62,758 bases of DNA from a virus, in IMG/VR virus record IMGVR_UViG_3300009551_000014, positions 1 through 62,758 of that record; one strand, given 5' to 3'. The position numbers and the translations under genes are program-made. This document shows positions 3,942 through 32,963 of this stretch, piece by piece (positions within the stretch are counted from its first letter, which is position 1; each line of letters starts with the position of its first letter). Under the pieces are notes generated by a model. That model saw nothing but the letters and a program-made list of their open reading frames with translations. It did not search any database and was not told where the DNA came from.

Positions 3942-3970
3942 TTGACAGCCATAGTAGCTGTGCGTACGTT
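3942..3970 (+). promoter_or_regulatory. Putative promoter
   Basis: TTGACA at 3942-3947 with a weak TACGTT -10 after a 17-base spacer, just after the terminator of the preceding cassette. Confidence 0.4.
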
Positions 3971-4053
3971 GGTTGTAACAGAGAGGCACCGACACTCTCT
4001 ACTGAACATCGGAGACAAAATGAACTCACACAGAAGATGGCAGCGAAGACCTG

Positions 4054-4338
4054 ATGCTCGTTCCGGAAGTGGACGATCTGGACGAGGTAGCAGAGTCGGC
4101 AGCTCGCAAAGTACTGCGAATCACAATGGAGTTTGAAGTAGGCGACAAAAAGACGCACTCGACGCGTCTTAAGGAAGCTTACCTAGCCGCTGTGACCGCC
4201 GCAGACGACGCGGTTCGCGCGATTCTGTTAAAGGACAGCGTACGAGGCTTGAAAACTCAAGTGGTGTACGGGTATCGCCACTTGGAAGGGAATGAGATCG
4301 CGTGGGGCCGGGTGATGAACAACAACCATGAGCAGTAA
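4054..4338 (+). CDS. Hypothetical protein (94 aa)
   Basis: Acidic N-terminus (LVPEVDDLDEVAESAARKVL), then a helical region LKEAYLAAVTAADDAVRAILLKD and a C-terminal YGYRHLEGNEIAWGRV. No family is recognised. The start is uncertain: ATG 4054 has only a weak ribosome site, whereas a strong GGAG followed by ATG at 4020 opens another frame that gives a low-complexity Arg/Ser peptide and stops at 4136. A short MAAKT reading that ends in TGATG at 4054 could couple translation to this start. Confidence 0.5.
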   Translation: MLVPEVDDLDEVAESAARKVLRITMEFEVGDKKTHSTRLKEAYLAAVTAADDAVRAILLKDSVRGLKTQVVYGYRHLEGNEIAWGRVMNNNHEQ

Positions 4339-4381
4339 CCTCAACCACCTCATACGAAACGGTGATATAAGAAGAGTGGAT

Positions 4382-4415
4382 GCCCCAGATCCCTAGACGG
4401 CCGAGGATCTGGGGC
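4382..4415 (+). terminator. Rho-independent terminator
   Basis: GCCCCAGATCC (4382-4392) pairs perfectly with GGATCTGGGGC (4405-4415), an 11-bp stem with a 12-base loop, followed by TAACTCTT. Confidence 0.75.
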
Positions 4416-4421
4416 TAACTC

Positions 4422-4887: not shown

Positions 4888-4978
4888 GGAAGGGCCAGCC
4901 GATAGTCGGCGGCGGCGCCTGTCTTGAAAACAGGTAGGGTTAAGACCCGTAGGAGTTCGACCCTCCTCCCTTCCGCCA
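4888..4978 (+). tRNA. tRNA-Ser (TGA)
   Basis: GGAAGGG/CCCTTCC acceptor stem, anticodon loop TTGAAAA centred on TGA, long variable arm as expected for serine, T-arm with GTTCGAC, and an encoded CCA at 4976-4978. It decodes TCA and related serine codons that are rare in high-GC hosts. Confidence 0.92.
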
Positions 4979-4979
4979 T

Positions 4980-5110
4980 GGATAGGCTAGTTCAAGGCTA
5001 GACAGTGACGGGGTTGCAACCCCTAGGAACAGTGGGGGTCTTGGATGAAGAAAACCCGGAGCGGGCACGCCGTACCCACAGCGTTAGCGAAATAGCCCCC
5101 GCGCCTATCC
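4980..5110 (+). ncRNA. Structured RNA candidate A (tRNA-like outline)
   Basis: GGATAGG (4980-4986) pairs perfectly with CCTATCC (5104-5110). Inside are a CTAG-TTCAAGG-CTAG hairpin, a GGGGT-TGCA-ACCCC hairpin whose loop contains GCA, and a GTGGGGG/CCCCCGC helix enclosing about 60 bases. The outline recalls a cloverleaf, but there is no T-arm motif and spacing is wrong for a tRNA. Function unknown. Confidence 0.35.
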
Positions 5111-5209
5111 AGTAGTACACCCGTTTAGCGGCGGGTTAGGTAGGTTCCCGGGTGGGATTTAGCTACCAGGAAGCGCACCCGATGCATGCAAGCGTGTGAT
5201 ACTGGATAG
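5105..5209 (+). ncRNA. Structured RNA candidate B
   Basis: CTATCCAGTA (5105-5114) pairs with TACTGGATAG (5200-5209), a 10-bp closing helix. Inside are CCCG/CGGG and GGTAG/CTACC hairpins. Its 5' strand is the same stretch that closes candidate A, so the two folds exclude each other. Confidence 0.35.
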
Positions 5210-5220
5210 CACTACCGCAT

Positions 5221-5293
5221 TGAGATATAGCTCAGTCGGCAGAGCGGGAGATTGTTAATCTCTAGGTCGCAGGTTCGATCCCTGCTATCTCAG
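5221..5293 (+). tRNA. tRNA-Asn (GTT)
   Basis: Perfect TGAGATA/TATCTCA acceptor stem, D-arm with AGCTCAGTCGG, anticodon loop with GTT, T-arm GCAGGTTCGATCCCTGC and discriminator G. Confidence 0.95.
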
Positions 5294-5395
5294 CGGCGCG
5301 GACTGACTCCTCGCGTCCAATCTGATTGGAGTCAGCAGATTGACGGTATGACCCACTATGCGCGGTCTACCGGATGGACCCCTCCGGGGGTTCTA

Positions 5396-5467
5396 TGGCC
5401 TTTGGTGTAATTGGTAGCACAAGGGATTTTGGTTCCCTCAGTCTAGGTTCGAGTCCTGGTAGGCCAG
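5396..5467 (+). tRNA. tRNA-Gln (TTG)
   Basis: TGGCCT/AGGCCA acceptor, anticodon stem AGGGA/TCCCT with loop TTTTGGT (anticodon TTG), T-arm with GGTTCGAGTCC. The seventh acceptor pair is a T-T mismatch. It reads CAA. Confidence 0.92.
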
Positions 5468-5629
5468 CGCTACAGATGGTAGCAACTTTGAGTATCTATG
5501 TTGTCGTTCTGAGGAGTGACCATGTAAGACACTTGAGTAAGCTATGGATACAACTGAATACCGCTCATCAGACGGTATATTCTGATCACAAGATGAGGTA
5601 TGAGGCTACTAGCATTGGTCTCATACCGC

Positions 5630-5703
5630 CTGGATATGGCCAAGCTTGGTAAGGCGCCGCGTTTGGGACGCGGAGAGCGCAAGTTCGAATCTTGCTATCC
5701 AGA
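5630..5703 (+). tRNA. tRNA-Pro (TGG)
   Basis: CTGGATA/TATCCAG acceptor, anticodon stem CCGCG/CGCGG around TTTGGGA (TGG), T-arm with AAGTTCGAATCTT, discriminator A. A strong GGTATGAG/CTCATACC hairpin lies immediately upstream (5597-5627) and may be a processing signal. Confidence 0.92.
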
Positions 5704-5818
5704 CAATGCGTTAGAGCGGGGATAGGATGTGGTAAAAGAACCGCGCGGTGATGCAGATGCAAGAGTCGGTCATCGGACGCAGGAGAGCCCGGGTTTACCA
5801 CAGGTAAGGGCTTTCATA

Positions 5819-5883
5819 GTGAGTGCCACCCAACCAACGCGCGGGACTAGGGGGCTGCCTGGATTACAAGACAGGCCACTCAC
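5819..5883 (+). ncRNA. Structured RNA candidate C (65 nt)
   Basis: GTGAGTG (5819-5825) closes with CACTCAC (5877-5883). A GCCTG/CAGGC hairpin with loop GATTACAAGA abuts the 3' strand. There is no T-arm, so this is not a standard tRNA. The surrounding 5704-6093 stretch has no convincing gene. Confidence 0.3.
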
Positions 5884-6093
5884 ACTTATTGCAGACAGAA
5901 AACCGATGTCGAGGCGAGCGGAGCTGTTTGACTGGGAAGTGCCGATGCAGGCGAACCAGGAGGCTGGGAAGCGTTGACCCTTATTCGGAAATGGCTGTCA
6001 CACCTTATAAAGTAGTGGTGCTACCCAGGTAACCCTACGGGTACAGGCTGGTATGGGCGCGCGGTCGTGCGGAAGTCAGCCCATCACACAAAA

Positions 6094-6156
6094 GACCGAT
6101 GCTCATTCCCCTAGCCAAGGGCATCAGAGACGGAATTTGGCATCCGTGCATCGGTC
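6094..6156 (+). ncRNA. Structured RNA candidate D (63 nt)
   Basis: A 9-bp closing helix GACCGATGC/GCATCGGTC encloses a CCC/GGG hairpin and an ACGGA-ATTTGGCA-TCCGT hairpin that abuts the 3' strand: a compact three-way junction ending five bases before tRNA-Val. Confidence 0.35.
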
Positions 6157-6160
6157 GTAA

Positions 6161-6234
6161 GGACGCTTAGCTCAGTCTGGCAGAGCATCGCCGTTACATG
6201 GCGAGTGTCACAGGTTCAAATCCTGTAGCGTTCA
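6161..6234 (+). tRNA. tRNA-Val (TAC)
   Basis: GGACGCT/AGCGTTC acceptor, anticodon stem TCGCC/GGCGA with loop GTTACAT (TAC), T-arm ACAGGTTCAAATCCTGT, discriminator A. It reads GTA. Confidence 0.93.
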
Positions 6235-6276
6235 CAAGGAGCACGGCCTACCGTGTTTAGTCTCAGTAGGTTGAGA

Positions 6277-6328
6277 CCAGGGCTTTTATAGAGGAAGTGA
6301 TTCGGGATTATTGCCCGGTCCGCCCTGG
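6277..6328 (+). ncRNA. Structured RNA candidate E (52 nt)
   Basis: CCAGGGC (6277-6283) closes with GCCCTGG (6322-6328); a CGGG-ATTATTG-CCCG hairpin lies near the 3' strand. A separate GTCTCA/TGAGAC hairpin directly precedes it. Confidence 0.3.
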
Positions 6329-6378
6329 GTCGGTGAAGCTAGGGGTAGCTGCCTAGTGTACCTGCCGACCTTCCGATT

Positions 6379-6450
6379 GCCACATTAGCTCAGGGGTAGA
6401 GCATCCGCCTTGTAAGCGGACGGTCGAGGGTTCAAATCCTTCATGTGGCT
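6379..6450 (+). tRNA. tRNA-Thr (TGT)
   Basis: Perfect GCCACAT/ATGTGGC acceptor, D-arm AGCTCAGGGGTAGAGC, anticodon stem TCCGC/GCGGA with CTTGTAA (TGT), T-arm with GGGTTCAAATCC, discriminator T. The 260 bases after it hold only hairpins (for example GCGGG/CCCGC) before the next gene. Confidence 0.95.
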
Positions 6451-6711
6451 CTAGTTCCGGTGACCTGTCCCCTCTGAACGATCTCAGGGGTCGGAAGGTA
6501 GCAGATCGTGCCGGGACTCGCAGTTGGCAGCGTACTGTGTGAAGCTGAACGCTGTAGTACGGTCGAGTCTCAGGTAAGATCGGGTCTAACGGCTGACAAC
6601 TTGCGTAGGTACCGAAAGGGCTTGACGAGGTTGACTCAGCGCGGGTTTCACAGCAGAGTGAGATTGGTCCCGCCCGGCGCCGCACTAAACTACTACCACA
6701 GGAGTCGAAGA

Positions 6712-7077
6712 TTGGGAACTAACTTCTACGTAGAGAAGACCTCGGATAGTTGTTGCGAGCATTGTACTGCTACAGAGCGCGTCCACATAGGGAAGTCCTC
6801 TATGGGATGGAAGTTCTCTTTTAAAGCTGACCCAGAGTGGGGCCGGGAGCATGCTCTCGTCAACTGGATGGAGTTGGTATATGGTGGTAAGATCGTTGAC
6901 GAGTACGGCGCGGAATGGTCTATGCTTTCTCTTCTGAAAAAGATCATGCTGAAGCAGAATGGCATGTCCCATCTAGTGAACCACGGTCCTAGCATAACTG
7001 GCCCATACTTCGATCCTGTAAAGTACGGTAATTTCGACTGTGGCGGATTCGATTTCTGCGACCAAGAGTTCAGCTAG
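6712..7077 (+). CDS. HIGKSS-type conserved phage protein (121 aa)
   Basis: The protein begins MGTNFYVEK with a C-x2-C pair (SCCEHC), then HIGKSSMGWKFSF and a helical tail with EYGAEWSMLSLLKKIM. The MGTNFY...CxxC...HIGKSSxGWxFSL signature is a widespread phage family of unknown function. TTG at 6712, seven bases after AGGAG, restores the MGTNFY start; the longer frame upstream reads through RNA hairpins. The C-terminus is longer than usual and Cys/Phe rich (FDCGGFDFCDQEF). It is the only protein gene inside the tRNA array, and its stop shares a base with the next tRNA. Confidence 0.8.
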   Translation: MGTNFYVEKTSDSCCEHCTATERVHIGKSSMGWKFSFKADPEWGREHALVNWMELVYGGKIVDEYGAEWSMLSLLKKIMLKQNGMSHLVNHGPSITGPYFDPVKYGNFDCGGFDFCDQEFS

Positions 7078-7149
7078 CCATCTTGCGCTAACGGCAAAGC
7101 GGCTGATCTCAAAAGTCAGTGAATAAGAGTTCGAATCTCTTAGGTGGCA
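7077..7149 (+). tRNA. tRNA-Leu-like (CAA), short variable loop
   Basis: GCCATCT/AGGTGGC acceptor, CGCT/AGCG D-stem, anticodon stem CTGAT/GTCAG with loop CTCAAAA (CAA, reads TTG), variable loop only TGAAT, T-arm AAGAG-TTCGAAT-CTCTT, discriminator A73. Bacterial tRNA-Leu normally has a long variable arm; this one has the class I shape. Its first base overlaps the preceding stop codon. Confidence 0.85.
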
Positions 7150-7151
7150 TC

Positions 7152-7224
7152 GCTGCGATGCGCTAACGGCAAAGCGAGTGGATTTAAACTCCGCTGAATG
7201 AGGGTTCGAATCCCTCTCGCAGCA
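7152..7224 (+). tRNA. tRNA-Leu-like (TAA), short variable loop
   Basis: GCTGCGA/TCGCAGC acceptor, D-arm nearly identical to the previous tRNA, anticodon stem GTGGA/TCCGC with TTTAAAC (TAA, reads TTA), variable loop TGAAT, A73 followed by genomic CCA. It reads TTA, the codon served by bldA in Streptomyces, but lacks the class II variable arm. Confidence 0.87.
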
Positions 7225-7235
7225 CCAAGGTTCTA

Positions 7236-7299
7236 GGTAGGGTACGCTGATAGCTCAAGCCGGTTAAGGCTATCAGTGTGGGCCTGGTAAAGCCCTACC
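7236..7299 (+). ncRNA. Structured RNA candidate F (64 nt)
   Basis: GGTAGGG (7236-7242) closes with CCCTACC (7293-7299); inside is a perfect 8-bp hairpin CTGATAGC/GCTATCAG. It sits between two tRNAs and has no T-arm. Confidence 0.35.
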
Positions 7300-7303
7300 G
7301 CGC

Positions 7304-7379
7304 GGCCCTATAGCCCAATTTTGGCAGAGGCGTCGGATTTAGGTTCCGAAGGTTGTCAGTTCGAGTCTGACTAGGGCTA
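7304..7379 (+). tRNA. tRNA-Leu-like (TAG), short variable loop
   Basis: GGCCCTA/TAGGGCT acceptor, anticodon stem TCGGA/TCCGA with loop TTTAGGT (TAG, reads CTA), variable loop AGGTT, T-arm GTCAG-TTCGAGT-CTGAC, A73. This is the third leucine anticodon in a class I body. Confidence 0.85.
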
Positions 7380-7380
7380 C

Positions 7381-7536
7381 ATGAAGGATGAAGACGGATA
7401 CAATCACGTGTGGGTACCCTGCGAAGAGGGGTGCCCACCCGATTTATATTGTGTAAGATGCTCTTGTGGGGACTACTCATGCGAGTACGCATGCGAGTGG
7501 CAAGAGGAGAACAACAATGTATCGATGGACGACTAA
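7381..7536 (+). CDS. Cys-rich acidic micropeptide (51 aa)
   Basis: Starts two bases after tRNA-Leu(TAG), so no independent ribosome site is visible. Six cysteines occur in a short span (VPCEEGC, CVRCSCGDYSCEYAC) in an otherwise acidic chain, suggesting a small zinc-binding fold. It overlaps the endolysin start in another frame. Its coding status is moderately uncertain. Confidence 0.4.
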   Translation: MKDEDGYNHVWVPCEEGCPPDLYCVRCSCGDYSCEYACEWQEENNNVSMDD

Positions 7537-8362
7537 CGTAGACACCCCCATCCCTGAGGATGGGATTTTAAGCTCAGCGACAATCAAGGCCTTGCAGTAC
7601 GGTCTAGGAGTACCCGACACAGGGCTCTTAGATGTTGGCACTGTCAAGGCCTTGCAATTTTATACTATGGGAGTCGTGCCTTCTCCAGCTGGCATCGTAG
7701 GGCCCGTGACGACAAAAGCTCTGGAGAGCAAGCTAGGCGCCCCCGTAACTGGACAGGTACCGTGGCTACATGCGACGGTCCTGGCACTTCAGCACGCGCT
7801 GAATCAGGGGCAGTGGGGCCTAGGCGTGCCGCCGCCTTCGAGCGGATGGATATCCTCGTCAGGCCTGAACAACAAAACAGGTCTGTCCTTTGCACGCTAC
7901 GTATCCGGGGGCACTATCACCTCTTGGTGTGCCGCAGCTTGCGCAGCGCGGGGTATCACAGACCCTACAGCGGTCAACTACTGGACTGTAGGATGCCACA
8001 CAGCCATCGGACGCGAATCCGGCGGAAACCCGAACGCGTGCAATACCAATGACTCCAATAACGTCACGCCATCGGGCTACTCGATGGTGAATGACTACGG
8101 AGACGGGTATGGTAGCCCCTCGGGCAACCTCGGCGGGCGCCTGGTGAACTATCAGTGCAGCCGAGGCCTACTACAGACCATTCCGCAGACCTTTGCGTCG
8201 AATCACTGCCCTGGAACCTCGAACATGATCTATGACCCTGTGGCCAACATCGCCGCAGCCATGGGTTACGTTGTATCTCGCTATGGGGTGTCCCACGACG
8301 GGCACGACCTAGCGGCCAAGGTCCAACAGTTCGACCCGAACCGTTCTCCTAGGGGTTACTGA
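7517..8362 (+). CDS. Endolysin: peptidoglycan-binding plus SLT-type lytic domain
   Basis: 281 residues from ATG 7517 (GAGGAG upstream); an in-frame GTG at 7466 would add a non-conserved leader. The N-terminal third carries two peptidoglycan-binding-like repeats (LQYGLGVPDTGLLDVGTVKAL, LQHALNQ). The C-terminal domain has the lytic transglycosylase signature: catalytic Glu in GRESGGNPNACN near residue 168, then RGLLQTIPQTFASNH and YDPVANIAAAMGYVVSRYG. No signal peptide is present, so a holin or the membrane protein at 8625 would release it. It resembles the muralytic domain inside the tape measure protein. Confidence 0.85.
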   Translation: MYRWTTNVDTPIPEDGILSSATIKALQYGLGVPDTGLLDVGTVKALQFYTMGVVPSPAGIVGPVTTKALESKLGAPVTGQVPWLHATVLALQHALNQGQWGLGVPPPSSGWISSSGLNNKTGLSFARYVSGGTITSWCAAACAARGITDPTAVNYWTVGCHTAIGRESGGNPNACNTNDSNNVTPSGYSMVNDYGDGYGSPSGNLGGRLVNYQCSRGLLQTIPQTFASNHCPGTSNMIYDPVANIAAAMGYVVSRYGVSHDGHDLAAKVQQFDPNRSPRGY

Positions 8363-10813: not shown

Positions 10814-11097
10814 AGAGACAAAAGCCTGACTACAGCCTGATAGAACGGCTGGAACACGAATTAGGGTACGATGACTGTGAGTTTTCGGACGCGCCATGTG
10901 CTAAAACCCTGCAAAAACCTCCTCCACACCTCCGCGAAATGCTCCCGGGCGGGTATTGGGTTCACTTATCGCAGTGTTGGTGTCAGGAGACGGTGCAAAT
11001 AGACGTCACAACCCTGTCAGACAGGTTTAGACGAGTAATTGAACATCGTTTTGACCCTGAGTACTACAAAAACCTACCAACTGAATGGGTTCCCTGA
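10741..11097 (+). CDS. Hypothetical protein, start unclear
   Basis: The frame is open to 11097. Its first ATG (10741) lies deep inside the preceding gene and lacks a ribosome site, and no ATG, GTG or TTG occurs in frame between 10800 and 10935. The convincing part begins near 10815 (DYSLIERLEHELGYDD) and contains CEFSDAPC and QCWCQETV, four cysteines that may bind zinc. Options are the deep-overlap ATG, a non-standard start, or a -1 frameshift from the gene at 10568. Confidence 0.45.
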   Translation: MGHRSLLGNRLRAFSHRIRRKVPLERQKPDYSLIERLEHELGYDDCEFSDAPCAKTLQKPPPHLREMLPGGYWVHLSQCWCQETVQIDVTTLSDRFRRVIEHRFDPEYYKNLPTEWVP

Positions 11098-11870
11098 TGT
11101 CAAAAACCGGTAAGAAGCTCGGAAAGCTGGCCCCTCACGTACCTTCGGGGCTTAAAACACTTACACACTACCTTACGGCACCGCTTCCTGCCCCTCCTTC
11201 GTGGATGCATTATGGCGGATTGGTCGCAAACTACCCATATTACGGGAACGACCGCTACGGGGACTGTGTAACGGCGGCAATCGGCCATCAAGAGCAGTTG
11301 TACGCCGCTCTGACCAAGGCCCTCGCGTCAGGTTGGGTCCCTGGCACGTTTTACGGTCCCAAGTACAGCATCACCTCGCCCACAAACACTCAAGTAGTGG
11401 CCGAGTACCTGAAATTGACCGGGGGCGCGGATTCAGGACTCGTCATCAGTGACACTATGTGGGTGTGGCAGCGTACAGGGCTCTGGGGAGACAAAATCAG
11501 TGCCTTCACTCACGTTAATTGGAAAAACCACACCCTCGTCAAGCAAGCCGTAGCCTTCTATGGCAGCGCACACATGGGTTTGCAGCTTCCCGCCAACGCC
11601 GAGACTCAATTCGACGCTAACCAGCCTTGGACTCTGGTGCCCGGATGGCAGAGTATCAAGAACTGGGGCGGGCATGCCGTACCGGTAGTCAGTTATGATG
11701 CCAATTGGCTGTACGTGGTCACCTGGGGGCGCATCCAGCGCATGTCCTGGGATTACATGGACGCCTACGCGGATGAGATGTGGGTAGTCATTGACGATAA
11801 GGTCTCGGCCCTAGGAGGGTTGGACAACATCAATATCTCACAGCTTCAAGCGGATTTGGTGACAGTATGA
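11097..11870 (+). CDS. Papain-fold (C1/C39-like) cysteine peptidase-like protein
   Basis: 257 residues from the ATG that overlaps the preceding TGA. YGDCVTAAIGHQ places a cysteine at residue 57 in a typical nucleophile helix start. GGHAVPVVSYD supplies a histidine near residue 192 and WLYVVTWG the strand after it, the order of a papain-like Cys-His dyad. Ala/Pro-rich segments flank the domain. No signal peptide. It could be a peptidase or an inactive relative; the acceptor is unknown, and cleavage of host or virion proteins or peptidoglycan stems are all possible. Confidence 0.6.
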   Translation: MSKTGKKLGKLAPHVPSGLKTLTHYLTAPLPAPPSWMHYGGLVANYPYYGNDRYGDCVTAAIGHQEQLYAALTKALASGWVPGTFYGPKYSITSPTNTQVVAEYLKLTGGADSGLVISDTMWVWQRTGLWGDKISAFTHVNWKNHTLVKQAVAFYGSAHMGLQLPANAETQFDANQPWTLVPGWQSIKNWGGHAVPVVSYDANWLYVVTWGRIQRMSWDYMDAYADEMWVVIDDKVSALGGLDNINISQLQADLVTV

Positions 11871-12666: not shown

Positions 12667-12732
12667 ATGACTATACCCACCCTCCTCATCATTGTTGTTA
12701 TCATCGCTATCGTTCTTCTCCTGGTCCGGTGA
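12667..12732 (+). CDS. Membrane micropeptide (21 aa)
   Basis: ATG after AAAGGA; the peptide is almost entirely one hydrophobic helix (MTIPTLLIIVVIIAIVLLLV) ending in Arg. It is one of at least five single-helix micropeptides in the plus arm. Function unknown. Confidence 0.5.
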   Translation: MTIPTLLIIVVIIAIVLLLVR

Positions 12733-12739
12733 TCAATAC

Positions 12740-12937
12740 ATGCAGCGCTACCGGATATACTCGGCAAAGACCGGGTGGCCCGGTGAAGAGAAAAGACAGT
12801 GGTTCGTGTTGCGGACCCATGAAGGACCCTGCTATCACCCGTACTGTAAAAGGCTGATGTTTACAGTATCAGCCTGGCGCAAAGCCATGGACATAGCAGA
12901 CGTCATGATCCGTCGAGACGTGTTGGAGAACATGTAG
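12740..12937 (+). CDS. Hypothetical protein (65 aa), paralogue of next gene
   Basis: The ATG at 12740 follows the previous stop by seven bases. RYRIYSAKTGWPGEEKRQWF near the start and TVSAWRKAMDIADVMIRRD near the end align with the next gene. The two are tandem duplicates of a small alpha/beta protein of unknown function. Confidence 0.6.
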   Translation: MQRYRIYSAKTGWPGEEKRQWFVLRTHEGPCYHPYCKRLMFTVSAWRKAMDIADVMIRRDVLENM

Positions 12938-12938
12938 C

Positions 12939-13145
12939 ATGAGTGCCAACCGCTACCATATCTACTCGGCCACAGAGAACTGGCCTAGCCATCGAGGGCG
13001 CCAATTCTGGTGTGTGGCACGCGAGCGCGCCGAAACCGAGTTCGCTACAGAGCACTTGCTACTGCTGACCGTACACACGTGGGAGCTTGCCATGAAGGCA
13101 GCCAACATCCTGATCAAGGCCGACATAACGGAGAGGCGAGTATGA
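12939..13145 (+). CDS. Hypothetical protein (68 aa), paralogue of previous gene
   Basis: RYHIYSATENWPSHRGRQFW and TVHTWELAMKAANILIKAD match the corresponding segments of the upstream gene, showing a tandem duplication that has diverged to roughly 40% identity by eye. Overlaps the next gene (ATGA). Confidence 0.62.
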   Translation: MSANRYHIYSATENWPSHRGRQFWCVARERAETEFATEHLLLLTVHTWELAMKAANILIKADITERRV

Positions 13146-13694: not shown

Positions 13695-13969
13695 TGGAAC
13701 TGATCCTGCACCACACCTTCATCACCGCTGACGGGCGTACGGATGTGGCCATAGCCGAGAGAGCCAAACTCGCGGCCCTCCTGCGCACCCATCGCGGTGA
13801 GTGGGCTATCATCCGCTACTGGAGCACGCGGCGCAAGGCTCAGCAATCGGCTGCCTCGATCAACCGCAATTGCTCAGCCTCGTTCCCTGCGATCGACTTC
13901 GAAGGCGACTACCGCCTCGTCAACGACCAGTGGGCCGTCCTGGTGCGCTACCTGGGGGATGGAGAATGA
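13694..13969 (+). CDS. Hypothetical protein (91 aa)
   Basis: ATG with AGGAG upstream; TGATG overlap. MELILHHTFITADGRTDVAI is followed by a basic helix LAALLRTHRGEWAIIRYWST and RKAQQSAASINRN. This resembles small phage proteins of the RYW-S/T-RKxAxxxAxxI type with no known function. Confidence 0.6.
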   Translation: MELILHHTFITADGRTDVAIAERAKLAALLRTHRGEWAIIRYWSTRRKAQQSAASINRNCSASFPAIDFEGDYRLVNDQWAVLVRYLGDGE

Positions 13970-14295
13970 ATCAATTCGCTGTCGGAGATATCATCGCAGT
14001 GCCCAAGGGTGCTCACAAGGACCTCGGAGAATGCCTTAAGCACGAGAGTGCCTACATAGGTGTGCTTACCAGGTTCACTGATCATGGAAAGTGCGCTTAT
14101 GTGCACCCTCTTGACGGATACATAGAGTACAACTCCGTGCGGCTCGCTGACGTCACCAAGGCCAAGCGTGGTCGCGGTCCGGGTTGGTACCGCCGCAAGG
14201 GTTCTTATACAGCTGGCGAGCCGTGGTGTATAGACCCGGGTAGGGATTGGGAAAAAATGTCCGTGCATCTCGAAAATGCTAGGTGGGAAGACTAA
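13966..14295 (+). CDS. Hypothetical protein (109 aa)
   Basis: Begins MNQFAVGDIIAVPKGAHKD and includes VLTRFTDHGKCAYVHPLDG, a beta-barrel-like pattern similar to small KOW or SH3 folds. The C-terminal part is basic with WYRRKGSYTAGEPW. No family recognised. Confidence 0.6.
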   Translation: MNQFAVGDIIAVPKGAHKDLGECLKHESAYIGVLTRFTDHGKCAYVHPLDGYIEYNSVRLADVTKAKRGRGPGWYRRKGSYTAGEPWCIDPGRDWEKMSVHLENARWED

Positions 14296-20644: not shown

Positions 20645-20895
20645 TGAAACTCACCTCTAGGGAATCCAGAGAGGCCGCGTGGGAAAACATCCAGCGCATG
20701 CATGAGTCTGGTGTGCACACGCTGTGCCTGTTCCCATCACGTAAGACAGGGGGTGCGGTAGGGGTGCGTCCCGGGTACTATGACGGTGGACACTCGGGAT
20801 GGTGCATAAAGGCGGGCACAGTGGATGCCTATCACTCACACGACTTTGATGGTGCCCTTTGGGCCAGTTGCGGATGCAGGGAGTATGGATCATGA
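20644..20895 (+). CDS. Hypothetical protein (83 aa)
   Basis: TAATG overlap. Helix (REAAWENIQRMHESGVH), then a Gly/His-rich section (GYYDGGHSGWCIK) and SCGCREYGS at the C-terminus. No family recognised. Confidence 0.58.
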   Translation: MKLTSRESREAAWENIQRMHESGVHTLCLFPSRKTGGAVGVRPGYYDGGHSGWCIKAGTVDAYHSHDFDGALWASCGCREYGS

Positions 20896-21269
20896 CGGAT
20901 CAGACGGTCTTCAAAAAGAACGACGTAGTTTGGTATCACGGTAGCCTGACGGAACGGCATGGGCTGTACCGTGTCGCAGAAGACGGTAAAGAGTCGGCAT
21001 ACGATGCCCGTACTCGGTACACCCTCAATCAGGTTGTCCCTCCTGGCATAGATGATTTTGTCAAGGGAGGATGGCGAGGTGAGGGCAAGTTGACCGGAGT
21101 TGACCCGGCGGGCATGACGATGTTTCGGGATGTTGATCTAGACGCCCCATTCGTGCCTGGGTATTATCAGAACATTCACAACGGCGGAATTCTGAAGGTG
21201 ACCCGTCATGGTTCCCTGTTGGTTCCTAGGAACTGGAGGCGGGTCAACGTCACTCCAGTGGAGGACTGA
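20892..21269 (+). CDS. FxPG[WY]Y-family protein, member 1 (125 aa)
   Basis: ATGA overlap. The diagnostic APFVPGYYQNIHNGG segment lies near residue 82, followed by VPRNWRRVNVTPVED, the C-terminal W-x-x-V signature of the family. The N-terminal part (VFKKNDVVWYHGSLTERHG) is longer than in its relatives. First of eight related genes spread over 20.9-24.5 kb; function unknown. Confidence 0.6.
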   Translation: MTDQTVFKKNDVVWYHGSLTERHGLYRVAEDGKESAYDARTRYTLNQVVPPGIDDFVKGGWRGEGKLTGVDPAGMTMFRDVDLDAPFVPGYYQNIHNGGILKVTRHGSLLVPRNWRRVNVTPVED

Positions 21270-21454
21270 TGCCTCGGGCTAGCATCTACCCTACCGGTCC
21301 GTATGAAGAGATGTTTTTCGTACAGGACAAGGAAGGGTTCTACCACATCTCAGACAAGACGCTGAAGAGGTGGGCCAAGGCGCATCGCAAGTACGTCAGG
21401 TCTCAAGAGGAGATGCGCATGATCTACGAGCGAGGATACGGAGCAGGGTTCTGA
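21269..21454 (+). CDS. Hypothetical basic protein (61 aa)
   Basis: TGATG overlap. Tyr/Phe-rich start (YPTGPYEEMFFVQDKEG), then a basic helix TLKRWAKAHRKYVRSQEEM. It sits inside the paralogue array but is not a member. Confidence 0.55.
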   Translation: MPRASIYPTGPYEEMFFVQDKEGFYHISDKTLKRWAKAHRKYVRSQEEMRMIYERGYGAGF

Positions 21455-21455
21455 T

Positions 21456-21728
21456 ATGAGGACAGATAAGCCCAAGACGTATAAGGTCTCATACACCATT
21501 GTCGGTGAGTGGGACCCGGAGGATAGCAGCACTAGAAATGCTGAGGATGGACAGTGGTACTACCATCCTGATTTTGCCACGGTAGAAGAGGTTAAGCCTC
21601 CTTTCGAGCCTGGGTGGTATCAGCTCCAAGGGAGGGACCGCAGCGATAAGCGAGGGATTATAGCTTGGCTGAGCGCGGAGTCGTGCAATCCTGAGAACTG
21701 GCATCCGGTGGAGGTATCAGACCTGTGA
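21456..21728 (+). CDS. FxPG[WY]Y-family protein, member 2 (90 aa)
   Basis: TYKVSYTIVGEW near the start, VEEVKPPFEPGWYQLQG in the middle, and NPENWHPVEV at the end: all three blocks of the family. The end matches NPQHWEPVVV of the gene at 23902, showing shared descent. Confidence 0.65.
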   Translation: MRTDKPKTYKVSYTIVGEWDPEDSSTRNAEDGQWYYHPDFATVEEVKPPFEPGWYQLQGRDRSDKRGIIAWLSAESCNPENWHPVEVSDL

Positions 21729-22027
21729 GGTACAGGGTAGAGTACGAGGTCGAGGGCTCGGTGCAGGAAGTAGCAGGACCTTTAGAGGGTAAGTACGTGG
21801 CAGGGTATCGGGTGCCGAGCAGCGCCAAGGTAACTCCACTGGTCGAGGAAGGGTTTTACCTAAGCGAAGATGGCAAACTTTTCTATGTGATTCCCGGTGG
21901 TACATCCGCGAAGGCCTTCCCGTTGAGTGTAGAGCAGGGGTTTTACCCGTACTTCGAGCAAGCGCTGATAGTGGAAGACTCCTGGTTCGACAAGCACAAG
22001 CAAATCACAGATAAGGCAGAGAACTGA
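21725..22027 (+). CDS. FxPG[WY]Y-family protein, divergent member 3 (100 aa)
   Basis: GTGA overlap. MRYRVEYEVEGSVQEV is the family's first block. The central motif occurs twice in degraded form, LVEEGFYLSEDG and VEQGFYPYFEQ, and the C-terminal Trp block is reduced to VEDSWFDKHK. Likely a partially duplicated or decaying member. Confidence 0.58.
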   Translation: MRYRVEYEVEGSVQEVAGPLEGKYVAGYRVPSSAKVTPLVEEGFYLSEDGKLFYVIPGGTSAKAFPLSVEQGFYPYFEQALIVEDSWFDKHKQITDKAEN

Positions 22028-22028
22028 T

Positions 22029-22352
22029 ATGCCCAAGTTCAAGGTTGAATACGAGATCGAATACCCTTCTGAGGAGAGGCTGATCAACTGGCACATCTCT
22101 TCGCAAGCGGAGCATGTGAAGATCACGGAGGTAAAACCGAAGTTCAAGCCTGGATGGTACCGAGAGAGGTTCACCTGGGGTAGCAATAATCTGGGCCCTT
22201 GGATGTATTGGCTCACTGCTCTGACCGAGGATGGTCGTGCCACGTTCGTCCACTACGTCAGCATAGATGGCGGTGCTGTCTGTACTACGGATGATGAGAA
22301 GCCTTTCACCAGTGAGCCGGGCAAGTGGGAGAGGGTTGATTTCGGTGCCTAA
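22029..22352 (+). CDS. FxPG[WY]Y-family protein, member 4 (107 aa)
   Basis: Starts MPKFKVEYEIEYPSEERL. The centre is ITEVKPKFKPGWYRERF followed by LGPWMYWLTALTEDG, and the end is PGKWERVDF. Closest to the genes at 22345 and 22697; the three form a tandem core of the array. Confidence 0.65.
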   Translation: MPKFKVEYEIEYPSEERLINWHISSQAEHVKITEVKPKFKPGWYRERFTWGSNNLGPWMYWLTALTEDGRATFVHYVSIDGGAVCTTDDEKPFTSEPGKWERVDFGA

Positions 22353-22704
22353 GTACAAGATCGAGTATGAGGTCGAGGCTGCGGATGAGCAGGCCGCTCG
22401 CTATAGCCATATCTGGACTGTCATGAAGGATAAGGCTACGGTCACTGAGATAGAAGAGTCGTTCGAGCCAGGTTGGTACCTTGAGCGCCAGGCTGACGGG
22501 TATGTCAACGACTGGCGTTACTGGATGATCGCCAAGGACGAGGACAAACTCCGTTACACGTGGTATATCAACGTTGAGACGGGGCAGTGTCAGAAGGATG
22601 AGAAGCCGTACAACACTACAGCTTATAAGAGCTGGGACGGACGAGTGCGCTTCCATAAGGCGAACATGAATCACGAGTCGAATAAGGTGCACCAGGATGC
22701 CTAA
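22345..22704 (+). CDS. FxPG[WY]Y-family protein, member 5 (119 aa)
   Basis: GTG start. MPKYKIEYEVEAADEQAA, then ITEIEE-type text VTEIEESFEPGWYLERQ, DWRYWMIAKDEDKLRYTWY and KDEKPYNTTAYKSWDGRV, aligning with its two neighbours through the whole length. It has an added His/Asn-rich tail. Confidence 0.65.
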   Translation: MPKYKIEYEVEAADEQAARYSHIWTVMKDKATVTEIEESFEPGWYLERQADGYVNDWRYWMIAKDEDKLRYTWYINVETGQCQKDEKPYNTTAYKSWDGRVRFHKANMNHESNKVHQDA

Positions 22705-23071
22705 GTACAAGATCTCATATGAGGTTGAGGGAACGCTAGAGAAAGACCTCAACTTCGATGGCTATCGGGGTGTGCGGGTTGCCCACACGGATATTTACGC
22801 ACGGTTCCCTGTCAGTGCCGAGATAGAGGAGGTCAAGCCTGAGTTCGAACCAGGATGGTATCGGGAAAGGTTTAACGATGGCAGGCTGGGTCCGTGGATG
22901 TATTGGGTTACCCACATGGACGAGGTTTCGACTACTTATACGCAGTACGTGGGCATCCCGCATTCTGAGTATGAGTGGGTCGGCGGCAGTTATACCAAGC
23001 TGGATGAGCCGTATACCTCAACGAACCGCTTTAACCTTGAGTGGGTGAGGGTTGATTTCCCGAATGAGTAG
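22697..23071 (+). CDS. FxPG[WY]Y-family protein, member 6 (124 aa)
   Basis: MPKYKISYEVEGTLEKDL, IEEVKPEFEPGWYRERF, LGPWMYWVTHMDE and LEWVRVDFPNE match the member at 22029 block by block. Overlaps the previous member by eight bases. Confidence 0.65.
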   Translation: MPKYKISYEVEGTLEKDLNFDGYRGVRVAHTDIYARFPVSAEIEEVKPEFEPGWYRERFNDGRLGPWMYWVTHMDEVSTTYTQYVGIPHSEYEWVGGSYTKLDEPYTSTNRFNLEWVRVDFPNE

Positions 23072-23294
23072 CCTGCCGATGTCTGGCCGCACCCGGCATT
23101 CTCAGTACTTTGATGCTGATGGGAGCTGGGTGCGTGGGTACTGGAGAGTCATAAACGGCACTCCCTACAAGTTCGCGCGCATCCAGACCACAGACGATGA
23201 TGTTGTGATCATGGCAATGCCCATGGATGGCGAGTATGCACACTGTCTTGTCTATGAGAAGAGGGACGATGGCGCATCCGCTGATGCCGAATAG
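23064..23294 (+). CDS. Hypothetical protein (76 aa)
   Basis: Overlaps the previous gene by eight bases. Beta-rich (HSQYFDADGSWVRGYWRVIN, TTDDDVVIMAMPMDGEY). The WVRGYWRV segment faintly recalls the F-x-P-G-[WY]-Y motif, but membership is not claimed. Confidence 0.55.
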   Translation: MSSLPMSGRTRHSQYFDADGSWVRGYWRVINGTPYKFARIQTTDDDVVIMAMPMDGEYAHCLVYEKRDDGASADAE

Positions 23295-23550
23295 CCGGGA
23301 GTACTGCTATGAGGTAAGCGAATCAGGGCGCGGGGAATTCCACACCTATGACGTGATACGCAAGAAACAGTATTCGAACGGGCACGTCGTTGGATCGTAC
23401 CGCTGGCGTTTCGTCGCCGAACAGGTAGCGGCGTTCTTATCAGATGCCGATGACAGAGATGAGTTCATTGAGCAGACGTCTAAGGACTCTGTAGTAGCAG
23501 ATGTGGAGAGAGATGCCTCCGATACATCCGATCGTTACTTTGACAAGTGA
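23269..23550 (+). CDS. Hypothetical protein (93 aa)
   Basis: ATG 23269 five bases after GAGG. EYCYEVSESGRGEFHTYDVI then YRWRFVAEQVAAFLSDADDR, with an acidic C-terminus. Alpha/beta protein, no family recognised. Confidence 0.55.
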   Translation: MAHPLMPNSREYCYEVSESGRGEFHTYDVIRKKQYSNGHVVGSYRWRFVAEQVAAFLSDADDRDEFIEQTSKDSVVADVERDASDTSDRYFDK

Positions 23551-23752
23551 CACGGTGGAAGAAGTGAACTGCTACGTGTGTCGCAACAAACGCGACCCGG
23601 AAGAGATGATGAGAGTCAGACACATAGACTTCACATGGAAGAATGTGTGTCCCGGCTGCCTTGATCAGTACGTTGAGGATAATGACTTAGAAGGCAAGGG
23701 GCATGGCTACGGATCACAGCAGTTCATCACCGGAGACAGACCGCATCCCTAA
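23513..23752 (+). CDS. Zinc-finger-like protein (79 aa)
   Basis: CYVCRNKRDPEEM near residue 20 and CPGCLDQYVEDND near residue 46 form two C-x2-C knuckles. The start could also be ATG 23501. It overlaps both neighbours in other frames. Confidence 0.55.
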   Translation: MPPIHPIVTLTSDTVEEVNCYVCRNKRDPEEMMRVRHIDFTWKNVCPGCLDQYVEDNDLEGKGHGYGSQQFITGDRPHP

Positions 23753-23912
23753 GTGCTGGCAAGTATGGGCATTGATGTTCACTGAACAAGGACGAGAGAG
23801 GTGGATACCAGTAAGCATGCTTTTCAAGGACAAGCGCACGGCTGACAGGTTGGCCGAGGTTCTTTGGCTGATCACCGAGGTACAGGAAGTGGACGACGAG
23901 GATGACGCGTAA
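23703..23912 (+). CDS. Hypothetical protein (69 aa)
   Basis: CWQVWALMFTEQGRERWIPV, then a helix RTADRLAEVLWLITEVQEVD and an acidic end. It contains an AAGCATGCTT palindrome in its coding sequence. No family recognised. Confidence 0.55.
   Translation: MATDHSSSSPETDRIPKCWQVWALMFTEQGRERWIPVSMLFKDKRTADRLAEVLWLITEVQEVDDEDDA
23813..23822. repeat. AAGCATGCTT palindrome, copy 3
   Basis: Perfect palindrome in coding sequence, context GTAAGCATGCTTTT. Confidence 0.6.
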
Positions 23913-24204
23913 GTTCGAGGTCTCATTCACTGTTGAGACAGATGACGACGGATTCAAGTCCACAATCGATGGGATGTCCCTCATTGCCTTTCAGATGCCC
24001 GTAGGTAATGGGCCTTCAGTACGCGTGCCTAAGGATGCGAAGATAGTTTCGGTGGTCAGACACGGATACTGGCGCAATAAGGCTAGTGGGGCTGTGTACT
24101 ACATCAGTGACAAAACCCCTACGACAGAAGACATGATAGTCAGAAATCCCCAACATTGGGAACCGGTTGTAGTATTGCCCGAGGAAGGAGACAGTAATGA
24201 GTAA
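23902..24204 (+). CDS. FxPG[WY]Y-family protein, divergent member 7 (100 aa)
   Basis: MTRKFEVSFTVETDDDG matches the first block. The central block is altered to VVRHGYWRNKASGAVYYIS, and the end NPQHWEPVVVLPEE matches member 2. It is part of the array despite the lost Phe-Pro. Confidence 0.58.
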   Translation: MTRKFEVSFTVETDDDGFKSTIDGMSLIAFQMPVGNGPSVRVPKDAKIVSVVRHGYWRNKASGAVYYISDKTPTTEDMIVRNPQHWEPVVVLPEEGDSNE

Positions 24205-24496
24205 GACTCCTTACAAAGAAGGTGATGTGATCACACAATCGGTTTGGGGAGAGAAAGACCAGGTATGGACTGCCGTTGAGATCGTTCCTGCCCCTAAGGC
24301 CGGGCGGGTATGGGTGTGTTTCGAACAGAGTACCACGTTCGTACCAGGATACTATCGGGCTAAGAAGTGTGAGGCGGGGGCTGTAGCTGAGATTAAGGTA
24401 TTCACATCTCCGCCTCTGAGCTTCTTTGTTGGCTCGTTTGACGAGACCTATGAGAGAGTCAGCGTTAAGCCATGGAGTGAAGATGACGACGCGTAA
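24197..24496 (+). CDS. FxPG[WY]Y-family protein, member 8 (99 aa)
   Basis: Central TTFVPGYYRAKKCEAG is the clear family motif; YERVSVKPWSEDDD is the C-terminal block. The N-terminus (YKEGDVITQSVWGEKDQVW) resembles member 1 more than members 4-6. Confidence 0.6.
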   Translation: MSKTPYKEGDVITQSVWGEKDQVWTAVEIVPAPKAGRVWVCFEQSTTFVPGYYRAKKCEAGAVAEIKVFTSPPLSFFVGSFDETYERVSVKPWSEDDDA

Positions 24497-26100: not shown

Positions 26101-26563
26101 ATTCAAGTTCACCATAGAAGCTCACGACAGGTATACCGATTCCCGAGTCTTTACCGAGGTGAAGTCGGGGGCCGTGGTCGAGGTATACGAATACTACAAT
26201 AAGACGGATCGGGATGAGCACAAGTCGTACAACCTTGCGGATGTGTGGGTACCGCTTAACTCTCGTGGTTGCGGTGTCGGTAGTGCTTTACTGCGGGAGG
26301 TATTGGACTACTATGATGATCGAGGAAAGAACCTCCGCCTTGTTACGGCAGGATGCTGTGCACCAACCCGCTGTGATAAGCCGGTTGACGTGAAGATCAT
26401 GCACACAGGGCACGGGCACTATGATGACTGTGACATGGAAGGGCTATCCCACCATGGCTTGCAGCGCTGGTATCGGTCATTCGGGTTTGTAGACCACCCT
26501 GAGGGCCGTAACGACGATGGTGAGCTATGCTGCGACTATCTTCTCTGGCGCCCACATGGCTAG
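26078..26563 (+). CDS. GNAT-type acetyltransferase-like protein
   Basis: 161 residues. DVWVPLNSRGCGVGSALLRE near residue 55 carries the acetyl-CoA-binding R/Q-x-x-G-x-G/A pattern (RGCGVG), the helix LLREVLDYYDDRG follows, and LQRWYRSFGFVDHP is the typical last strand-helix of the fold. A Cys/His-rich insert lies between (GCCAPTRCDKP, HTGHGHYDDCD). Probably acetylates a small molecule or protein; phage examples include host-directed effectors. Substrate unknown. Confidence 0.65.
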   Translation: MSTAMKSRFKFTIEAHDRYTDSRVFTEVKSGAVVEVYEYYNKTDRDEHKSYNLADVWVPLNSRGCGVGSALLREVLDYYDDRGKNLRLVTAGCCAPTRCDKPVDVKIMHTGHGHYDDCDMEGLSHHGLQRWYRSFGFVDHPEGRNDDGELCCDYLLWRPHG

Positions 26564-27191
26564 GCAACCCGGGCGTTTCGCCTGGAAGCGGGATTGGCCA
26601 TACGAGGATCGCAAGCCATGCAGCCGTTGTGAGATAGTAAAGCCCTTAGAAGAATATGGCAAGTACAAGACAGGGTTCTTAGGGCGCAACGCCATGTGCC
26701 GAGCGTGCTCACGCGAAGAGTGGGCCGTACAGTTTCGGCGCAAACGAAAGCCGAAGAACCCTACAGCTCACGCCGTCACAGCGGAAAAGATGCACGATCT
26801 TTATGGTAAGATGGTTCTTCTGCCTGATGACGAGGGTCCGGTATGCCGCAATGGTGACGAGGACCACAAGAGCAAGTGGTTCGCTCCCCACAACACGTGG
26901 GAGCATCTAGTAGCCAAAGGCTATTGCCATAACTGCCCTGTGTTAGAGACCTGCTTAGATCTAACGGTGATGCTCAAGCCTCAAGCTGGCATATGGGCCG
27001 GGCTCAACCTGACTGACCGCAAGGTCATAGGGCAGAGCAATAAGCATGCTTTACGGGAAGAGTTCGAATACCAGAAACATAACGGTGCTCACATGCCGAG
27101 CTACCGCAAGAACCACAAGTCCTACCACAGGTGGGATAAGAATAAGGATGATGACTATGAAGACGACAGTACTTCGGAAGATGCTGGGTAG
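26556..27191 (+). CDS. WhiB-like protein with N-terminal zinc finger
   Basis: 211 residues from ATG 26556. The N-terminus has CSRCEIVKPLEEYGKYKTG and CRAC, a C-x2-C...C-x2-C finger of the kind found in phage HNH-associated proteins. The second part is WhiB-like: a first Cys in VCRNGDED, then CHNCPVLETC, and GIWAGLNLTDRK in place of the usual G-[IV]-W-G-G turn. WhiB proteins hold a 4Fe-4S cluster and bind sigma factor in actinobacteria. A long charged tail ends the protein. Confidence 0.65.
   Translation: MARQPGRFAWKRDWPYEDRKPCSRCEIVKPLEEYGKYKTGFLGRNAMCRACSREEWAVQFRRKRKPKNPTAHAVTAEKMHDLYGKMVLLPDDEGPVCRNGDEDHKSKWFAPHNTWEHLVAKGYCHNCPVLETCLDLTVMLKPQAGIWAGLNLTDRKVIGQSNKHALREEFEYQKHNGAHMPSYRKNHKSYHRWDKNKDDDYEDDSTSEDAG
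27042..27051. repeat. AAGCATGCTT palindrome, copy 4
   Basis: Perfect palindrome inside the WhiB-like gene, context ATAAGCATGCTTTA. Confidence 0.6.
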
Positions 27192-30967: not shown

Positions 30968-32313
30968 TCAAGCTAGATCCCTACCAAGTAGAGTCGTCAG
31001 ACTTCCTAGCAGAGCGCACCAGAGCGCTTCTCCTAGACGAGCAAGGGGTAGGGAAGACCTATCCAACCATCCGAGCAGCCAAGGACACGGACAACGGCTA
31101 TCCATGGCTTGTTACGGCCCCAGCCTACCTACTGCCAACCTGGCGCAAGTGCATACGCGAGATGCACACCTATAACGATGTAGCCATTGCCAACGGCACA
31201 CCTAAGCAGCGACTAGACGCACTGACGTCCGGCCGCTCTTTTGTGTTGACATCGTATAACAACTGGACGAGCGAGCAATACTCGTCCATGTGGACAGGCA
31301 AGTGGAACTATGCCTTTGACGAGATCCATCGTATCAGAGGCCGTAATTCCAAGTGGACCAAGCAAATACTCAAGGCGGGTTCATCAAGGAACGTATTCTC
31401 TAAATTCTGGGGCTTGACCGGTACCCCCATGGTTAGGGATCCTGGCGACCTGTTCCCTCTGCTCAAGCTCATGGATCCACAGAGCTTCACGTCTTACTGG
31501 AAGTTCGTCGGGCAGTGGTGCGACCTGCGCACTACGCCATGGGCTACCGAGGTGGGACAGCTTAAGGAAGGGGTCGAGGGTGAGTTCTGGGAAATGGTCA
31601 GGCGGTACTCTCTGCGCCGGTCCACACAGGATGTGCCCGAGCTGCGGGATCTCACCCACACATACAACGAAGTCCTTGTGGATCTGCCCGCGAGCGTTGT
31701 CAAGACGTGCAAGGATGCGGTCAAGAACTATGTTATTGAGCATCCTGATATCGATACACCTGAAGCAGTATCCTCAGGCGGTGCTCTTGTCCAGAAGCTC
31801 CGGCAGATGACCACAGTCCCCCCGACCAAGACCAACCCTAAGCTTGATGCTCTGATGGATCTGTTAGAGGATCATCAAGAGCCTGTGATCGTATGGTGCT
31901 GGTATAGAGCTACGGCTAATGCCATTATGGATCGGCTGGAGTCAAACAGTCGTCCAGCGGCGATGTTCACCGGGGATACCTCGGCCAAGGGCAAAGAGAT
32001 AAATCTACAGTGGTTCTACACTAGTGTGAGCGATAACGAGAACCCCATCATGGTAGCAACTATCAGTGCCATGAAGGAGGGTGTAAACATGCAGGCAGCA
32101 CGGACACAGATATTCATGGAAGAATCATATCTGCCTGCTGATAATGCTCAGGCTATAGCCAGATCGAAGCGACGGGGGCAGACTAAGCCAGTGAACGTAT
32201 ATCATATTCATGCTAGCGACTCTATCGACATAAAGGTGCACAGCCTACAGGAGAACCGGGAGTCTGGAATTCTCCGCGCAATGCTTGAACACATTCGAAA
32301 GGATTTCTCATGA
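30964..32313 (+). CDS. SNF2/DEAD-like superfamily 2 helicase
   Basis: 449 residues. Motif I LLLDEQGVGKTYPTI near residue 25, Ia TAPAYLLPTW near 47, II FDEIHRI near 118, III LTGTPM near 153, IV-like VIVWCWYRATANAIMD near 310, V TISAMKEGVNMQAA near 365 and VI QAIARSKRRGQ near 396. It translocates on DNA and may remodel complexes or assist recombination. TTG 30964 gives an NTGA overlap; ATG 30955 would add three residues. Confidence 0.82.
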   Translation: MIKLDPYQVESSDFLAERTRALLLDEQGVGKTYPTIRAAKDTDNGYPWLVTAPAYLLPTWRKCIREMHTYNDVAIANGTPKQRLDALTSGRSFVLTSYNNWTSEQYSSMWTGKWNYAFDEIHRIRGRNSKWTKQILKAGSSRNVFSKFWGLTGTPMVRDPGDLFPLLKLMDPQSFTSYWKFVGQWCDLRTTPWATEVGQLKEGVEGEFWEMVRRYSLRRSTQDVPELRDLTHTYNEVLVDLPASVVKTCKDAVKNYVIEHPDIDTPEAVSSGGALVQKLRQMTTVPPTKTNPKLDALMDLLEDHQEPVIVWCWYRATANAIMDRLESNSRPAAMFTGDTSAKGKEINLQWFYTSVSDNENPIMVATISAMKEGVNMQAARTQIFMEESYLPADNAQAIARSKRRGQTKPVNVYHIHASDSIDIKVHSLQENRESGILRAMLEHIRKDFS

Positions 32314-32963
32314 GTGGATTCTTCAATGATGATTGGATTTCCAATCTATACAAAAGTGCTGGAGTAGGCGTGTACGGTGGAGTTCCTGTGTATCAGGTGA
32401 CAGCAGACAAAAAGGTATACATATCAGGGCCCATGCGAGGGTATGCTGATTATAACTATCCTGCGTTCCATGCGGCTGCTAAGTCGCTGGAAGCTGAAGG
32501 ATATAAGGTCCTTAATCCGGCGGAGAATTTCAACGGTGCAACTGACCTTGAATTCGAGACGTATATGCGTGAAGATATAAGCATGCTTTTGAAGGCTACT
32601 CATATCTACATGCTCAAGGGATGGCAGAACTCTGATGGTGCGCGTCTTGAGTTGGCTATCGCTAAGGCTCTGGGACTTGAGGTCTCGTATCAGACAGACA
32701 ACGCTGAGCCTGTGGAGCTTGAGGCCGCTCGCATCGTACGTAACGGCGCGCGAGAGCAGATCTACGGGCATCCCAGCAAGGATCTCGGACGTACGGGAAC
32801 ATTCTGGGGTGTCGAGGGGCGAGAGGTCGCGCTGCGCATGATTCAGATGAAGATCAGTCGCCTGATGTCTACACCGGACCACAGGGACAGCATCGTGGAT
32901 ATCATCGGCTACGCCATCGTATACGCGCGTATGGTGCTGGAGGAGCAGCCGGATGCACATTGA
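32310..32963 (+). CDS. DUF4406 plus DUF6378 fusion, nucleotide-metabolism-like
   Basis: 217 residues in two parts. Residues 35-130: KVYISGPMRGYADYNYPAFH, NPAENF and GWQNSDGARLELAIAKALG match DUF4406, a relative of nucleoside deoxyribosyltransferases. Residues 140-215: AREQIYGHPSKDLGRTGTFW and ISRLMSTPDHRDSIVDIIGY match DUF6378, a MazG-like helical domain. The fusion points to clean-up or salvage of modified nucleotides. Confidence 0.7.
   Translation: MSGFFNDDWISNLYKSAGVGVYGGVPVYQVTADKKVYISGPMRGYADYNYPAFHAAAKSLEAEGYKVLNPAENFNGATDLEFETYMREDISMLLKATHIYMLKGWQNSDGARLELAIAKALGLEVSYQTDNAEPVELEAARIVRNGAREQIYGHPSKDLGRTGTFWGVEGREVALRMIQMKISRLMSTPDHRDSIVDIIGYAIVYARMVLEEQPDAH
32579..32588. repeat. AAGCATGCTT palindrome, copy 5
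   Basis: Perfect palindrome within the DUF4406 gene, context ATAAGCATGCTTTT. Confidence 0.6.

Follow-up and report, generated by a model that had tools for sequence, protein, structure and literature searches.

The genes of actinophages are mostly small and nameless, and a series of small same-strand genes upstream of the replication genes is a layout typical of siphophage early regions. In single rudiviral genomes the paralogs of the anti-CRISPR protein AcrID1 are heavily duplicated (PMC11065993). MotB, an early protein of T4 that is predicted to contain an SH3-like (KOW) domain, changes the interaction of the host H-NS with DNA (PMC7827196). In mycobacteriophage Waterfoul, 32 gene products block host growth on overexpression (PMC9339283). 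The protein family described here is real and undescribed, and families of its kind are common in the early regions of phages. It is smaller and less uniform than the original prediction, made from the DNA sequence, had held.

The window, that is, the whole stretch of DNA analysed, is an entire virus record of 62,758 bases from IMG/VR. An exact 123-base repeat is common to both ends of the record (1-123 and 62636-62758) and is suggestive of a complete or almost complete genome. The minus strand carries the late genes (for terminase, portal and major head protein, and for tape measure and tail) between 44 and 62 kb, and the plus strand carries the replication genes between 27.5 and 41 kb. The array of small genes that carries the family has the orientation of the replication genes, opposite to that of the late genes, and is located upstream of the following genes:

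27543, plus strand, primase
30955, plus strand, helicase
33131, plus strand, exonuclease
34266, plus strand, Sak4-like annealing protein
38418, plus strand, DNA polymerase

Two other genes are found near the array:

24706, HTH protein
26517, WhiB-like protein

Judged by its position, the array region is a probable early region; promoter-like sites in the sequence are no commoner than in shuffled controls. The WhiB-like gene indicates that the host of the virus is probably an actinobacterium. The product of this gene (26517-27191) is an unusual fusion, in which residues 109-169 are WhiB-like and residues 29-91 match the endonuclease VII and Lar-like families.

Elsewhere in the window, nine tRNA genes, three of them for tRNA-Leu, are clustered at 4888-7380. 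A stand-alone gene near this cluster (7466-8359) encodes ~130 residues that are 38% identical to part of the tape measure protein (47906-52066). Two neighboring genes of the tail region, 53628-54020 and 54037-54783, are paralogs (47% across 135 amino acids), as are 43591-44151 and 45250-46347 (39% across 145 amino acids), the products of which are probable virion proteins. A further duplication of small genes is represented by a pair of adjacent ORFs at 12671-13142 (32% across 62 amino acids, E 4e-9). The product of 32310-32963 resembles nucleoside 2-deoxyribosyltransferase PHROGs in its N-terminal part and PHROGs annotated as phosphofructokinase in its C-terminal part.

The eight genes assigned to the array in the original prediction all exist, and their coordinates, strand and frames agree with the ORF list. 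They form one unbroken, operon-like run on the plus strand, with overlapping or nearly abutting genes, and five other small genes (21269, 23052, 23227, 23501 and 23703) are interspersed among them. They are not, however, eight copies of one gene. The array is composed of a six-gene group A and a two-gene group B that share a motif, and a probable ninth member, assigned to group B, is situated 7 kb away. The members are as follows (genes labeled L006 belong to a second phage described below):

20892..21269, plus strand, group B member, 125 amino acids, with a FVPGYY...NWRRVNV C-terminal module and no YKVxYEVE strand (B profile, match to L006:3842)
21456..21728, plus strand, group A member, 90 amino acids, short form of the module (BLAST 4e-7 to 22697; leave-one-out E 1.4e-6)
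21725..22027, plus strand, group A member, 100 amino acids, GTG start, degenerate motif VEEGFY (profile E 2e-4 with the L006 relatives)
22029..22352, plus strand, group A core member, 107 amino acids (BLAST, leave-one-out profile)
22345..22704, plus strand, group A core member, 119 amino acids, GTG start, overlaps the preceding gene (BLAST, leave-one-out profile)
22697..23071, plus strand, group A core member, 124 amino acids, residues ~41-120 modeled as a beta module (BLAST, profile, AlphaFold)
23902..24204, plus strand, probable group A member, 100 amino acids, degenerate motif VRHGYW (E 0.01 to L006:2005; BLAST E 0.004 to 21725)
24197..24496, plus strand, group B member, 99 amino acids (B profile)
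13966..14292, plus strand, probable ninth member, group B, ~108 amino acids, outside the array (motif and layout)

The start of gene 22345 is an internal GTG within an ORF listed from 22267. The motif F-x-P-G-[WY]-Y, which had been attributed to all eight genes, is strict in six of them (20892, 21456, 22029, 22345, 22697 and 24197) but degenerate in 21725 and 23902. The clustering of the strict motif is real, because its six occurrences compare with a mean of 0.03 and a maximum of 1 in 300 shuffles of every six-frame ORF of the window. The N-terminal YKVxYEVE strand was likewise thought to be universal; it is present in 21456, 21725, 22029, 22345, 22697 and 23902, but 20892 and 24197 lack it. 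The C-terminal block, when written as [WY]xx(x)V, is found in seven of the eight, the exception being 21725. Two ORFs with look-alike motifs, 20644 (RPGYY) and 23052 (VRGYW), fail to join the profiles and were rejected as members.

Three adjacent genes, 22029, 22345 and 22697, were expected to align over their full length, and they do so with 36-39% identity and BLAST E-values of 4e-16 to 3e-19; 21456 joins this core trio at 4e-7. A profile search had been proposed as a means of linking the members, and it succeeds in part. When one gene at a time was left out of the profile and sought among 1983 six-frame ORFs, drawn from the window and from fetched relatives, 21456, 22029, 22345 and 22697 were each recovered (1e-6 to 6e-21). 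Gene 21725 was recovered at 2e-4 after two relatives from the other phage had been added to the profile. The same enlarged profile did not recover 23902 (0.61), for which the profile link to group A consists solely of a match of its own single-sequence profile to L006:2005 at 0.01. Membership of group A is certain for 21456, 22029, 22345 and 22697 and good for 21725, and 23902 is a member by way of its relative in the other phage.

A two-sequence profile of group B (20892 and 24197) finds L006:3842 at 1e-4 and, once the latter has been added, L006:4416 at 3e-5. The two genes are thus connected with each other by way of a relative in the second phage, and it is chiefly the motif that connects them with the other six. 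Group B profiles built without the tested member give E-values of 1e-7 for L006:3842, 0.005 for 24197, 0.008 for L006:4416 and 0.03 for 20892. The ninth gene, 13966-14292, is a recurrent weak next match of the group A profiles. Its product has a GDII N-terminus, a GPGWYR motif and a DWEKMSV C-terminus, which is the layout of group B. A group B profile built without 13966 does not find it, and its score of 6e-24, obtained only after its own inclusion in the profile, is circular; the gene is thus placed in group B by its motif and layout.

Groups A and B likely have a common C-terminal module. The group A genes are the chief non-member matches of the group B profiles, and profile-profile comparison of the two groups gave probabilities of 28% for the modules and 48% for the full-length proteins, compared to at most 6% in 40 controls with column-shuffled module alignments. 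In both groups the FxPG[WY]Y strand is followed by a terminal [W]xRV strand in identical order. Furthermore, A and B genes are neighbors in two phages (23902-24197 in the window; L006:2005 ... 3842-4416). All this argues against convergence, in which the two groups would be unrelated and would have acquired the FxPG[WY]Y strand independently. We regard convergence as somewhat unlikely, although the connection between the groups vanishes when the motif is masked: the A profiles then find no B genes, and the B profiles reach A genes at chance level only. Convergence would also agree with the lack of the N-terminal strand in group B, several members of which begin like a GDV/GDI domain. The question concerns ancestry, and convergence would be compatible with any functional reading.

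The family was not recognized in the original prediction, and the databases agree, as Pfam, PHROGs, NCBIfam and PADLOC gave no match above a curated cut-off or with an E-value below 1e-3. No member matches the defence, counter-defence or host-takeover families in the databases searched, and a sequence search of solved structures returned nothing meaningful. DUF2510 (PF10708), an actinobacterial GWYPDP...YWDG...W domain, has a superficially similar GWY ... YW ... W spacing. It was rejected as an identity for the family because PF10708 finds nothing in the window and the proteins have no Pfam match to it.

A scan of viral contigs with the group A profile identified one other phage, G001 (66 kb, IMG/VR), which is present in two assemblies. 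It contains two A genes, L006:8001 and L006:2005, separated by 6 kb, and two adjacent B genes, L006:3842 and L006:4416. Gene 21725 is nearest to L006:8001, and 23902 is nearest to L006:2005. These two genes of the window and the other non-core members may represent older lineages that have counterparts in the second phage. In G001 a gene in direct overlap with a group A gene (L006 8315-9082) is a homolog of 11085-11870 of the window; the match in a named record is annotated as a cysteine protease. An adjacent pair of similar small genes (L006 6572-7380, MANQE...CGTV.CIAGWT) also lies near a group A gene of G001.

Scanning of DNA with FEPGWY and FVPGYY as the patterns yielded 65 stretches, mostly due to chance, and G001 and one more contig, L015, alone survived profile filtering. 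L015 has three adjacent A-type ORFs with group A profile E-values of 6e-4, 0.13 and 0.22 among 10,065 ORFs, and a large ORF that resembles a family A DNA polymerase lies just downstream of them. Because the pattern had selected only one of the three, the other two provide independent support. In L015:1999 and L015:2331 the A-type N-terminus is fused to a different module, SxxxDxDGDxW...W, which is present in Microbacterium, Arthrobacter and perhaps Mycobacterium phages, in every case in hypothetical proteins. We considered whether the FxPG[WY]Y module could be a variant of this DGDxW module and rejected the idea because the profile link between them stems only from the shared N-terminus.

Group A is absent from records that share the terminase at 39-57% identity, and both groups are absent from three long terminase relatives (52-74 kb, terminase 39-46% identity). 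Searches of named phages with the array DNA and with the protein sequences of three members gave no real match, the group B alignment found nothing in the viral contigs, and the group A profile found nothing in 84,980 bacterial and archaeal genomes. The scattered, multi-copy occurrence of the family and its absence from near-complete terminase relatives indicate that it is accessory and mosaic.

The original prediction pictured a run of diverging paralogs in an early region. An undescribed multi-copy family in a probable early region is indeed present, but the picture fits loosely, the core copies being old. Among 22029, 22345 and 22697, pS is 0.73-0.81, i.e. saturated, and pN is 0.34-0.51, and in codon-position GC content the array is the same as the replication and late genes. 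The copies are therefore old, coding and constrained on average, and the three core genes look like old tandem duplicates. With synonymous sites saturated and pN below pS, the proposed dN/dS comparison within the array revealed neither recent expansion nor positive selection. The group A tree has no supported branch, and the order of duplication is unreadable from it.

The early regions of actinophages may gain and lose small orphan genes with little effect, and the family could consist of such low-consequence duplicates. Its absence from the terminase relatives, the eroded motifs of 21725 and 23902, and the many unknown proteins of similar size in named actinophages would all fit. Nevertheless, every copy has an open reading frame, pN in the core is well below pS, and codon-position GC is like that of the replication and late genes, which together argue that the array copies are under coding constraint and make an origin by neutral turnover quite improbable.

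The C-terminal module of 22697, modeled by AlphaFold with eight sequences, is all-beta with a pLDDT of ~90 over most of its length. The model has strands at residues 42-46, 53-58, 64-74, 78-86, 99-109 and 115-119, in the order of a short strand, the FxPGWY strand, three longer strands and one short strand. The variable loop between the lead strand and the module (residues 17-37) has a pLDDT below 50. The model of group B, with a pLDDT of 38, was discarded. An SH3-like or LSm barrel was taken to require five bent antiparallel strands that close a barrel. The best Foldseek matches of the 22697 model are Edc3 LSm domains (E 0.18, probability 0.99, TM 0.60 by target length), and KOW, Tudor and other small barrels appear lower in the list. 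No match passed 1e-3 in either library, and the viral fold library gave weak matches to unnamed proteins only. As the best E-value is poor, the SH3/LSm-like fold is a lead and not a result, and the group A module appears to be weakly nearest to LSm/SH3-like barrels.

Because the weak fold neighbors are LSm, KOW and Tudor barrels, and because the module is rich in aromatic residues, the members might be nucleic-acid-binding early proteins, by which transcription in the host or phage, the structure of the nucleoid, or mRNA would be tuned. T4 MotB, the precedent for such a role, may act in this way (PMC7827196). The HTH (24706) and WhiB-like (26517) genes close by would agree with nucleic-acid binding. 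Such a role is unlikely, however, as Glu and Asp are abundant in the proteins, which are not basic (e.g. EVKPxFEPGWY), and neither the KOW nor the Sm family of Pfam is matched. The LSm neighbors could also point to a hetero-oligomer, a mixed ring or fiber like those of eukaryotic LSm proteins, in which the paralogs would be subunits. The presence of several copies per genome in three contigs is consistent with it, and 21725 and 23902 have possible counterparts in G001, which suggests that distinct positions have been maintained. On the other hand, the copy number varies (six A and three B genes in the window, two and two in G001, three A genes in L015), and members are scattered, as seen for 13966 and for L006:2005 and L006:8001, so that a single assembly of this type is rather improbable.

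The best explanation, which we favor tentatively, is that the members are accessory, non-virion, early proteins that act as host-directed binders. Each protein, ~90-125 amino acids long, would in group A begin with a lead strand, continue with a variable loop and end in a small C-terminal SH3/LSm-like beta module, the first strand of which would bear the FxPG[WY]Y signature and the last one W-x-[RP]-V. The signature residues would pack in the core, and insertions in the module, together with the variable loop that follows the first strand, would form the binding surface. Each copy might then simply occlude a partner of its own, from the host or in counter-defence, and duplication followed by loop divergence would widen the set of targets. 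The operonic packing upstream of the replication genes, the multi-copy presence in three viral contigs, the absence from terminase relatives, the confidently modeled all-beta module of one group A member and the long-term purifying constraint speak for an early host-directed role. Against it, earliness is judged by position only, the saturated sites carry no sign of positive selection, and the Foldseek E-values are poor. A very improbable elaboration would have paralogous LSm/SH3-like barrels target host factors, either as mixed oligomers or as a panel of binders used in combination; they would share one signature strand, encode their specificity in the loops, and swap N-termini with other actinophage modules.

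If the members are host- or defence-directed binders, the array is a ready panel of related proteins with different targets; if they are not, the array illustrates the usual turnover of early genes. In either case, a profile and a domain layout are now available for the family, together with a confident model of part of it and relatives from other viruses, one of which joins the group A N-terminus to a module of cultured, genetically tractable actinophages. What makes the family interesting is that its profile is clean, that it is multi-copy in three contigs, and that modules are exchanged with cultured actinophages.

The Edc3 LSm domain (PDB 6am0, 5lop) is the closest neighbor of the 22697 model in structure, but with an E-value of only 0.18 and 13% identity, and it belongs to a eukaryotic decapping factor. 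Rudiviral AcrID1 resembles the family in having many diverged paralogs of a small early protein per viral genome (PMC11065993); the viruses are different, and the comparison is one of copy pattern, not of sequence. T4 MotB (KOW plus OB) likewise comes from a phage early region and is predicted to contain an SH3-like domain (PMC7827196). No sequence link to it was seen, and DNA binding has been shown for MotB, whereas for the family any such activity is hypothetical. The actinophage proteins of the form LPxxSVxxDxDGDxWxxxxGxW ... YGPVTVL, all annotated as 'hypothetical protein', include gp63 of the Microbacterium phages Antuna and Phonegingi and gp62 of the Arthrobacter phage AbbyDaisy. The genes of the window differ from them in bearing FxPG[WY]Y modules, and the members tested have no direct match to those phages. 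Like the genes of the window, those for the LPxxSVxxDxDGDxW-module proteins occur in runs of small actinophage genes, and in L015:1999 and L015:2331 the DGDxW module carries the group A N-terminus, Antuna gp63 matching L015:1999 at 3e-5.
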